Source: a virus | Length of the DNA: 39,811 bases | IMG/VR virus record: IMGVR_UViG_3300043449_000699 | Coordinates: 1-39,811 of that record | Direction: 5' to 3' (one strand) | Shown: one piece after another, positions 31,247 to 33,043 of the stretch | How the letters are laid out: every line of letters starts with the position of its first letter | How positions within the stretch are numbered: the stretch's first letter is position 1 | The notes under the pieces: model-generated | Told to the model about the DNA's origin: nothing | The model's database searches: none | Seen by the model: only the letters and a program-made list of their open reading frames with translations | Position numbers and translations under genes: made by a program

Positions 31247-31693
31247 ATGAAACGCTGCTTCAAGTGCGGCGTGGAGAAGCCGGTGGACTTGTTCTACCGG
31301 CATCCCATGATGGGTGACGGGCATCTTGGCAAGTGCAAAGAATGCACAAAGAAAGATGTGGCTGCTAACTATCAGGCTCGTCGTCAGCAGTACGCTGAAT
31401 ACGAGCGGGAACGGTATCAGCGTCCTGAGCGCAGGCGGAAAACGGTTGAGTATCATCGCAAGGGCGTGTTGCGGAACCCCGAAAAGGCTACTGCACGCAA
31501 TGCGATAAGCAACGCAATCCGCGACGGCAAACTGCAAAGAAAGCCGTGCGAGGTTTGCGGTGACGCTAAGTCGGAAGGCCATCATCCGGACTATTCCAAG
31601 CCGTTGGAAGTCATGTGGCTGTGCCGCACGCATCACTTGGAGCAGCATGGCAAGAAGTCATACGTTTTCGCTGACCAGGCGCAAAGCGGATGA
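31247..31693 (+). CDS. HNH-type endonuclease-like zinc protein
   Basis: A 148-residue protein. An N-terminal zinc ribbon ('CFKCGVEKP' and 'GKCKECTKK') is followed by a basic helical region and a C-terminal 'CEVCGDAKSEGHHPDYSKPL' with 'VMWLCRTHHLEQHG'. The GHHPDYSKP and final HHxxxH set are the metal-binding and catalytic His of small phage HNH proteins. It may nick phage or host DNA, or be an accessory to packaging. Not placed as a free-standing homing endonuclease, since it fits tightly in the operon. Confidence 0.75.
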   Translation: MKRCFKCGVEKPVDLFYRHPMMGDGHLGKCKECTKKDVAANYQARRQQYAEYERERYQRPERRRKTVEYHRKGVLRNPEKATARNAISNAIRDGKLQRKPCEVCGDAKSEGHHPDYSKPLEVMWLCRTHHLEQHGKKSYVFADQAQSG

Positions 31694-31863: not shown

Positions 31864-32036
31864 CACCACAGGAACAAGTGCAACTTGCCCGTTACAAAGA
31901 GGCAACTGTGCGCTCGGATGACACGATAGCGGCACTGGAGAAAGTGGTTGCTGCGCAGAGGGAGGTTATCGACCTGCTGCACGCGCAGATTGGCAAGATG
32001 GAAAGCAACCTACAGGAACTGAGGGCGGCACTGTGA
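31860..32036 (+). CDS. small coiled-coil protein
   Basis: A 58-residue protein starting 'MTPQEQVQLARYKEATVRSD'. Heptad-like spacing runs through 'TIAALEKVVAAQREVIDLLH' and 'IGKMESNLQELRAAL', so it is likely one continuous coiled coil. It overlaps the previous gene (ATGA) and the methyltransferase start (GTGA). A similar short coiled coil follows the methyltransferase (33040), so the two may be related or partners. Confidence 0.55.
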   Translation: MTPQEQVQLARYKEATVRSDDTIAALEKVVAAQREVIDLLHAQIGKMESNLQELRAAL

Positions 32037-33043
32037 AGTACCTGTCCGTGTGTTCGGGCATAGAGGCCGCGACGGTTGCCTGGCACCACATGGGCTGGGA
32101 GCCGGTGGCGTTCAGCGAGATTGAGAAGTTCCCGTCAGCCGTGCTGGCGCATCACTATCCGTCCGTCCCTAACTGGGGCGACATGACCCGCTTTAAGGAA
32201 TGGCCCGATGCAAATGTCGATGTTCTCGTCGGAGGAACCCCATGCCAGTCCTTCTCAGTCGCCGGACTCCGAAAGGGACTGGATGACCCGCGTGGCAACC
32301 TCATGCTCACCTACGGAGCAATTGCGCGACGTTATCAGCCACGTTGGCTTGTCTGGGAAAACGTCCCCGGTGCTTTGTCGTCTAACGGAGGGCGAGACTT
32401 TGGAGCCTTTCTTTGGATGCTGGCGCAATGCGGGTATGGGTGGGCCTACCGAGTCCTGGACTCTCAGCACTTCGGAATCGCTCAACGCCGTAGAAGAATC
32501 TACGTTGTTGGATATCGTGGAGATATGCAACGTTCCGCCTCGGTACTTTTTAAGTCAGCAGGCAGCGGACGGGATACTGCGCCGACTCAACCGAAAGGGG
32601 ATGTTACATGGTGGAACGGAAACGCCGTAAGCCAAACGCTGGACGCCGTGCTTTACAAGGGACAGATGATGCCGGAGAAAAACAGGTTTCCGGTGTTGGC
32701 CCTTGGCGAAAAGTTGTGTTCAGCGCCGACTGCGACGAAGACGGAAATTGCCCGAGTTGCGGAATTGACTACGCCGAGTGTGACTGTCCTGGACCAACTC
32801 AGAACGAACGGTATGAGTACAGCTTCCGAAAGGACGGCACAATGTGGGCGCGTCGTCTTGCGTCGGGTGATGCCGATTGAGGCGGAAAGGCTGATGGGCT
32901 TTCCCGACGACTACACAAACATCCCCTGGCGCAACAAACCCGAGTCACCAGATGGTCCGCGCTACAAGGCGCTTGGAAACTCAATGGCAGTACCCGTAAT
33001 GCGCTATATAGGCGAACGAATCAACGAGGTAAGCAAACTATGA
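32033..33043 (+). CDS. C5-cytosine DNA methyltransferase
   Basis: A 336-residue enzyme, GTG start overlapping the previous stop. Motif I 'LSVCSGIEAATVAW', motif IV 'GGTPCQSFSVAG' with catalytic Cys71, motif VI 'WENVPG', motif VIII 'QRRRRIYVVG', and motifs IX-X 'MGFPDDYTN' and 'ALGNSMAVPV' are all present, so it should be active. It would methylate phage DNA against host restriction; the target is unknown. Residues about 224-275, where the target-recognition region lies, look unlike any relative I recall and are read in another frame by a nested gene. Two nested frames are listed separately. Confidence 0.92.
   Translation: MKYLSVCSGIEAATVAWHHMGWEPVAFSEIEKFPSAVLAHHYPSVPNWGDMTRFKEWPDANVDVLVGGTPCQSFSVAGLRKGLDDPRGNLMLTYGAIARRYQPRWLVWENVPGALSSNGGRDFGAFLWMLAQCGYGWAYRVLDSQHFGIAQRRRRIYVVGYRGDMQRSASVLFKSAGSGRDTAPTQPKGDVTWWNGNAVSQTLDAVLYKGQMMPEKNRFPVLALGEKLCSAPTATKTEIARVAELTTPSVTVLDQLRTNGMSTASERTAQCGRVVLRRVMPIEAERLMGFPDDYTNIPWRNKPESPDGPRYKALGNSMAVPVMRYIGERINEVSKL
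32208..32630 (+). CDS. nested gene in the +1 frame of the methyltransferase
   Basis: A 140-residue frame wholly inside the methyltransferase gene. AAGGAA lies seven bases before its ATG, a good ribosome-binding distance. The product ('ERDWMTRVATSCSP', 'GKTSPVLCRLTEGETLEPFF', 'GMGGPTESWTLSTSE', 'YFLSQQAADGILRRLNRKG') matches a protein I recall in many phages, each time with these same motifs. Part of that conservation follows from the methyltransferase frame, so real translation is not certain. No function is known. Confidence 0.5.
   Translation: MQMSMFSSEEPHASPSQSPDSERDWMTRVATSCSPTEQLRDVISHVGLSGKTSPVLCRLTEGETLEPFFGCWRNAGMGGPTESWTLSTSESLNAVEESTLLDIVEICNVPPRYFLSQQAADGILRRLNRKGMLHGGTETP
32608..32880 (+). 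CDS. nested small zinc-ribbon-like gene in the +2 frame of the methyltransferase
   Basis: A 90-residue frame that starts 22 bases before the other nested gene ends and has AAAGGGG seven bases before its ATG (a GTG at 32716 is another possible start). The last 50 residues, 'DCDEDGNCPSCGIDYAECDC' then 'PGPTQNERYEYSF', are a well-known stand-alone small phage protein with CxxC and CxC pairs, probably zinc-binding. In the methyltransferase frame the same bases give an unrecognisable sequence, so this frame, not the enzyme's, seems the older here. Confidence 0.6.
   Translation: MVERKRRKPNAGRRALQGTDDAGEKQVSGVGPWRKVVFSADCDEDGNCPSCGIDYAECDCPGPTQNERYEYSFRKDGTMWARRLASGDAD

Follow-up and report, generated by a model that had tools for sequence, protein, structure and literature searches.

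The window, the whole 39,811-nucleotide stretch analysed here (positions 1 to 39,811 of virus record IMGVR_UViG_3300043449_000699), contains portal, major head, tail, primase and replication-initiation genes, as well as a gene for a C5 cytosine DNA methyltransferase inside which two further open reading frames are nested on the same strand. The enzyme aligns with PF00145 over residues 1-331 at 180.8 bits, exceeding the curated cut-off of 22, a match by which the host gene encodes a complete C5 methyltransferase. The coordinates and frames of the enzyme, the +1 ORF and the +2 ORF agree exactly with an original prediction made from the letters of the window; the overlap between the two nested ORFs, there given as 22 bases, was confirmed but measures 23 (32608-32630). 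The predicted Shine-Dalgarno-like elements are both present, as is the CxxC...CxC signature of the +2 product (C48-x2-C51 and C58-x-C60). The features of the locus are as follows.

32033..33043, + strand: C5 cytosine DNA methyltransferase, the host gene; GTG start, 336 aa; PF00145 E 6e-53, phrog_116 E 4e-83.
32195..32200, + strand: Shine-Dalgarno-like AAGGAA of the +1 gene, seen in the sequence 7 bases 5' of its ATG.
32208..32630, + strand: +1 gene of the GILRR family, 140 aa, a diverged and shortened copy, recognised by relatives at offset +1 and by selection.
32502..32600, + strand: conserved C-terminal part of the +1 product (TLLDIV...GILRRLNRKG), where codon-position variation in relatives is in +1 phase and the alternate-frame ratio is 0.17; it corresponds to the first helix of the sole confident part of the +1 protein model.
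32594..32600, + strand: Shine-Dalgarno-like AAAGGGG of the +2 gene, seen in the sequence 7 bases 5' of its ATG.
32608..32880, + strand: +2 gene, a small CxxC/CxC protein of 90 aa and putative inserted gene, with stand-alone relatives and three contexts.
32609..32695, + strand: recognition block WWNG...RFPV of the enzyme (residues 193-221), conserved in the enzyme frame and found without CxxC in relatives; read in +2, it is the N-terminal extension of the +2 product.
32704..32859, + strand: CxxC core (+2 residues 33-84), which matches stand-alone genes and is absent from empty-site relatives.

A/G-rich stretches also precede the corresponding +2 start in four relatives (L098, L185, L186 and L188). 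On the 5' side of the methyltransferase, at 31247-31690 on the + strand, lies an endonuclease VII-like gene (phrog_2340, E 1e-33), which also resembles, less strongly, a Lar-like restriction alleviation family (phrog_5558, E 2e-6).

An open shadow frame by itself proves little, and homology and selection were therefore examined. Residues 33-84 of the +2 product match a stand-alone gene of Ruegeria phages (56% over 52 aa, E 2e-11), which encodes 68 aa and shares 4 bases with the gene on either side; one of these flanking genes matches phrog_757, a methyltransferase family, and the other is annotated as a DNA polymerase. The suggestion that the +2 product is elsewhere a stand-alone small phage protein is thus borne out, and its homologs are not limited to shadow frames of methyltransferases. 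An IMG/VR scan with an alignment yielded 99 relatives, 80 of which were kept; pooling these with loci found earlier and dropping near-identical copies left 68 distinct CxxC copies, 46 of them outside C5-methyltransferase ORFs, 13 in frame inside, nine nested at +2 and none at +1. The core W..VVF.ADCDEDGNCP.CG.DYAEC.CPGPTQ, with four paired cysteines, forms invariant columns in alignments of 13 and 12 and is present in the window. From the spacing of these cysteines, the CxxC protein is probably zinc-binding.

The context of these copies suggests a partner role, as the CxxC protein is fused in frame or adjacent to two methyltransferase types: 13 copies lie in frame in C5 enzymes, three are joined in one ORF to a phrog_757-like methyltransferase (L230 by scanning, L222 and L253 by similarity), and 13 of the non-nested copies are within 200 bases of a methyltransferase. 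All three in-frame enzymes that were scanned match PF00145, and in the 10 that were read the CxxC domain lies at what we take to be the interval after the motif VIII region and before the C-terminal motif X. Alternatively, CxxC may be a passenger that lands in a tolerant methyltransferase loop without any functional connection, as might be expected from the 30 of 46 non-nested copies with no methyltransferase detected by the queries used in the fetched flank, from free copies that adjoin unrelated genes (L009, L010, L012 and L013), and from a hidden insertion already known in a phage methylase (PMC11855218). We consider this possible but doubtful, given the fusions and adjacencies above and given that searches of Pfam, PHROGs and NCBIfam with CxxC identified neither a nuclease nor any other function in mobility. 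These searches gave nothing useful in Pfam (with the window copy) or NCBIfam, and nothing better than E 0.04 in PHROGs. The CxxC model (mean pLDDT 70) had no PDB structure match at E <= 0.001, a PDB sequence search returned two chance-level matches only, and plasmids gave no match for the +2 product. In cellular genomes, a single-sequence CxxC scan gave no relatives and the alignment scan gave two, in contigs from Bradyrhizobium lablabi and a Myxococcales MAG (L265 and L266), which are perhaps prophages. In Curvibacter phage PCA1, a carrier of a nested CxxC copy (L002 3500-3740), the enzyme reading changes frame upstream, at a C run: the N-terminal part of the methyltransferase is in one frame and the C-terminal part in another, and only the second part is annotated in the record.

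The +1 product of the window is matched by 14 phage records in tblastn and has 220 relatives among 223 pattern-matched IMG/VR stretches. For the best 80 of these 220, every match (80/80) is at offset +1 relative to a methyltransferase. Because this sample had been picked by the +1 product, a second one was drawn by enzyme sequence alone (the top 80 among at least 599 loci), and a +1 relative was again found at offset +1 in all 80. The 64-aa C-terminal part of a family member is matched by 132 phage records, and the family occurs in phages of Enterobacter, Cronobacter, Aeromonas, Pseudomonas, Pectobacterium, Ruminococcus and Mycobacterium, as well as in P1 dmt and P7 dam. The offset was checked in the two 80-locus samples, in P1 and in further phage loci, a part of the 144 phage records, and all relatives so checked are at +1 of a methyltransferase, except gp104 of phage Thibault and its counterpart in Schatzie. 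In both of these phages (L428 and L432) the methyltransferase is interrupted by an intron-like insertion that carries an HNH gene, after which the GILRR part restarts; Thibault gp104 (L428 1432-1677) is annotated as an 81-aa hypothetical protein in the GILRR frame. For the +1 ORF, then, the search for homologs outside methyltransferase genes proposed in the original prediction has so far returned shadow frames only. A stop interrupts the +1 ORF in L046, L054 and L060. In L026 (2702-4287) the frames swap and the C-terminal part of the methyltransferase runs on in the +1 frame, through either a sequencing error or a real frameshift, and in L256 (460-2038) the end of the GILRR +1 ORF overlaps the in-frame CxxC domain of the enzyme, all in one gene.

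A full-length +1 member has about 150 aa, with the C-terminal consensus LSDxLETGxVPQRxFLSAxACxGILRRAEKRGKxLPxxLxxALxxVA. Pfam and NCBIfam gave nothing useful for the +1 proteins, and a PDB sequence search gave no match for the +1 product. The model has a mean pLDDT of 53 and is confident only from about residue 115, where it forms a C-terminal helix pair; the family product is accordingly predicted to have a two-helix C-terminus and, probably, a disordered N-terminus. Among PHROGs, phrog_16143 (139 aa), named 'DNA methyltransferase' after the enzyme, is matched by 68 of 74 +1 proteins at E <= 0.01 (best 9e-13), a match suggesting that this family is the +1 frame under the enzyme's name. Judged by these homologies, both nested frames belong to conserved protein families.

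Selection was analysed in 95 enzymes below 90% identity, kept from 164 usable. In enzyme codons 1-50, 5' of the +1 ORF, entropies at the three codon positions are about 0.6/0.5/1.5; over codons 61-180 the position-3 entropy is down to 0.5-1.1, and codons 181-190 show the reverse order (1.11/0.35/0.28), the pattern to be expected when +1 is the frame that is kept. At four-fold sites, counted only where the residue is conserved in 90%, mean entropy falls from 1.81 before the ORF (12 sites) to 0.65 inside it (36 sites; Mann-Whitney p 3e-7). The +1 frame is open in 93 of the 95 sequences, against a mean of 14.5 of 95 (maximum 22, 200 runs) with synonymous codons permuted, a null that holds the enzyme sequence but ignores common descent and thus overstates the contrast. 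A site-class analysis after the idea of OLGenie, on 150 random pairs, gave an alternate-frame dNN/dNS of 0.96 before the ORF and 1.05 at codons 66-110, a ratio that reveals no selection on +1 there, followed by 0.66 (0.45-1.04) at codons 111-147, 0.49 (0.27-0.94) at 148-166 and 0.17 (0.08-0.29) at 172-190, where the enzyme's own dNN/dSN is 0.80 (0.53-1.26). For the enzyme-picked subset (n = 50, including the window), the corresponding values at codons 172-190 are 0.16 (0.08-0.26) and 0.61 (0.43-0.88). By dNN/dNS, selection on +1 is strong at the C-terminus and unseen early, and over the helical C-terminus it tracks +1 rather than the enzyme.

It could be argued that the methyltransferase alone is coding and that the nested ORFs stay open through conservation of the enzyme, which is indeed strong, and all checked +1 relatives do lie in or beside a methyltransferase gene. 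Such an artefact would leave unexplained the stand-alone CxxC genes, the inverted codon-position variation over the GILRR stretch, the drop in four-fold-site entropy at the ORF, and the prevalence of the second and third phases where the enzyme frame is weak. We regard it as extremely improbable, and because CxxC genes exist on their own and selection is in phase with the nested frames, the pure shadow-ORF reading was set aside. Selection in the enzyme frame only, named in the original prediction as an outcome that would speak against it, was found for neither +1 nor +2.

The start of the +1 gene was analysed in the same 95 relatives. An ATG is present in 80 of them, 71 of which also carry a Shine-Dalgarno-like word; 15 of the 95 have no ATG in the examined interval, and the word is missing from the other nine of the 80. 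The Asp codon that forms the ATG is used as GAT:GAC in 49:5, compared with 51:97 in codons 1-50, and the Lys codon within the Shine-Dalgarno element as AAG:AAA in 62:2, compared with 16:52 two codons earlier, all four counts ignoring relatedness. In phage P1, GGAG lies 7 bases 5' of an ATG in the +1 frame. The Shine-Dalgarno element and ATG of +1 are maintained through synonymous choice. This conservation at synonymous sites argues against production of the +1 product by ribosomal frameshifting from the enzyme instead of from an internal start, an improbable route to which the continuation of the enzyme's C-terminal part in the +1 frame of L026 nevertheless lends some support.

The window's own +1 copy is the most divergent of 63 members, with 15 of the 53 columns conserved in 90% changed, and it stops before the second C-terminal helix, so that the two-helix C-terminus LSxxACxGILRRAEKRGKxLPxxLxxAL is incomplete. 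Its match to phrog_16143 is not significant (E 0.17); against the family profile it scores E 9e-58 over positions 1-130 of 146, with a profile that contained the window sequence or its copy. From this alignment, the window copy can be described as a truncated member of the GILRR family, and the +1 gene may be losing function in the window's lineage. It is conceivable, and in our view rather unlikely, that the +1 ORF, a real gene in relatives, is here a decaying remnant and that only the enzyme and the CxxC gene work: besides the divergence of the window copy, five nested-CxxC relatives with the WNG block (L098, L185, L186, L188 and L191) also have no second helix. Nevertheless, the window ORF is still open with its Shine-Dalgarno element and ATG, and the L098 copy, with nine departures from conserved columns, retains most conserved residues. 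The second helix is kept in L250, which has a nested CxxC and no WNG block.

The enzyme across the insert was analysed through the recognition block, for which 80 loci were kept after scanning and the block was recognisable in 62. In 58 of the 62 there is no CxxC, and the four with CxxC are contigs already in other samples; a +1 relative lies at offset +1 in 50 of the 62 and at another offset to the block's ORF in five, and was not found within the fetched stretch in seven. Between RFP and motif IX, empty sites have 7 residues (L363 and L147) or 13 (L373), compared with 55 in the window, and since these relatives share the block without the insert, the enzyme of the window reads through an inserted gene. 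A 7-residue spacing is also seen in L375 and L378, in short ORFs of 183 and 132 aa. The recognition block of L147 had no match in isolate phages, and in IMG/VR it matched only its own contig.

The two parts of this region differ in phase. Within the recognition block, differences fall on the three enzyme codon positions as 54/42/178 (15 pairs of six sequences), and the enzyme frame prevails. In the CxxC core of the same six sequences they fall as 177/347/229, in +2 phase, variation being greatest at the second enzyme codon position, equivalent to position 3 in +2. Comparison of the window with L098 gave 11/21/12 in the core versus 27/18/54 in the non-overlapped ends (p 6e-4). With variation in the core in +2 phase, enzyme residues ~224-275 are mainly a by-product of the CxxC gene. 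This agrees with the observation in the original prediction that residues 224-275 look like no relative, since the segment is a read-through of the CxxC gene and is missing from same-block relatives. The idea that the target-recognition region itself was made from an older gene is not supported, as the block WWNG...RFPV precedes the segment and occurs CxxC-free, and for the +1 ORF the idea of an older gene read in a new frame has to be reversed, the enzyme being the older frame and the +1 ORF overlying its catalytic domain. Likewise, the 673 of 1011 bases said to be dual-coding stand as a formal overlap, but constraint is divided among the frames by region: both frames in part of codons 60-170, mainly +1 over the GILRR stretch, mainly the enzyme over residues 193-221, and mainly +2 over residues 224-275.

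Permutation gave 0.517 observed versus 0.352 expected for the enzyme frame in the CxxC core (ignoring descent), which suggests enzyme-frame selection inside the core; when free CxxC genes with a similar level of identity are taken as the reference, a like rise is found in the two off-frames (0.452 and 0.468 versus 0.334 and 0.350). Of the 46 non-nested copies, 20 have no stop in the frame at +1 to the CxxC gene, and three have none in the frame at +2 to it. An enzyme can thus read an inserted copy mainly in frame or with the copy at enzyme +2, which matches the arrangements observed. Of the 13 enzymes with CxxC in frame, 12 have an open CxxC +1 frame (p 0.002 versus 20/46), and a long +1 ORF of another type spans the CxxC domain.

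Combining homology, frames, empty sites, selection by frame and the conserved +1 start signals, all of which were observed, it is proposed, with a probability of roughly 0.65, that the three frames represent three genes: a C5 methyltransferase, an overprinted +1 gene and an inserted CxxC gene. The +1 gene would be translated from its own internal Shine-Dalgarno element and ATG. A CxxC gene of the kind found free in other phages would have inserted between the recognition block and motif IX of the enzyme. The enzyme would remain open, since one frame of the CxxC gene is stop-free and correctly phased, and would read the insert as a ~50-residue spacer. The CxxC protein would be made from its own start, overlapping the +1 ORF end by those 23 bases, with coupling to +1 possible, and both small proteins may work with the methyltransferase.

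The closest precedent is ShiLan, an out-of-frame HNH insertion in a phage methylase reported in 2025 (PMC11855218). The ShiLan insertion also introduces no host-frame stops, has its hidden ORF in the third frame (+2), has insertion-free relatives, and has a similar free gene beside the methylase in some phages (PMC11855218). The window shows the same stop-free host frame, hidden ORF in another frame and insertion-free relatives. In contrast, the hidden product is an HNH endonuclease in ShiLan and a small CxxC protein here, and a Shine-Dalgarno-like element is present here, none being reported for ShiLan (PMC11855218). A further difference of the present case is that the CxxC module also occurs in frame and that a second gene is present at +1. 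The window insert thus works like a ShiLan-type insertion and is not a member.

Rz/Rz1 of phage lambda offers a parallel: Rz1 lies within another phage gene, on the same strand and with a start of its own, and acts in lysis with the product of that gene. The nested frames of the window likewise have putative starts of their own inside a longer gene, but that gene encodes a DNA methyltransferase, and a partner role is putative. P1 dmt and P7 dam, which encode bifunctional methyltransferases, have the same +1 GILRR ORF in the C5 part, but the enzyme is there fused to an adenine methyltransferase and no CxxC insert was seen. In the P1 dmt and P7 dam records the +1 GILRR ORF (L179 2189-2680 and L433 1189-1686) is unannotated. 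No description of a conserved +1 gene in phage C5 methyltransferases was found among the open-access titles and abstracts listed. Such products are already listed as ORFs, as matches of +1 proteins to PHROGs 16143, 1008 and 31772 and the annotation of Thibault gp104 as a hypothetical protein indicate.

Phage methyltransferases have been treated as single genes and studied as counter-defence. We lean towards a broader view in which phage-type C5 methyltransferase genes would as a rule be two-gene loci, with a +1 GILRR gene in the subfamily of P1 dmt and the window and another type of +1 gene in a second subfamily; the CxxC module would be portable, occurring in frame, out of frame and free, so that enzyme stretches past motif VIII would be by-products of other genes. 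If a second conserved protein is indeed encoded in these loci, from P1 to phages of Mycobacterium and gut Firmicutes, knockouts and clones, including those of P1 dmt, would take away or supply two proteins together. The finding of CxxC at comparable places in three states, in frame, nested out of frame or free, would also make the origin and cost of overlapping genes testable, and at least three PHROG families appear to bear the enzyme's name for proteins of another frame.

In the second subfamily, another long +1 ORF with the motifs WPTP..RDWKD... and LNP..SRWLMGFP was observed in L008 (1821-3026), L011 (2022-2975), L211 (2052-2927), L260 (1878-2810) and L267-L346. We regard this +1 gene as a lead. 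The +1 ORF is at least 150 aa long in 80 of 81 loci and matches phrog_1008 in all six tested and phrog_31772 in four of the six; third-position entropy goes from 1.30-1.80 at codons 1-45 to only 1.05-1.48 at codons 46-165, and the DWK motif is found in only 20 of the 81.
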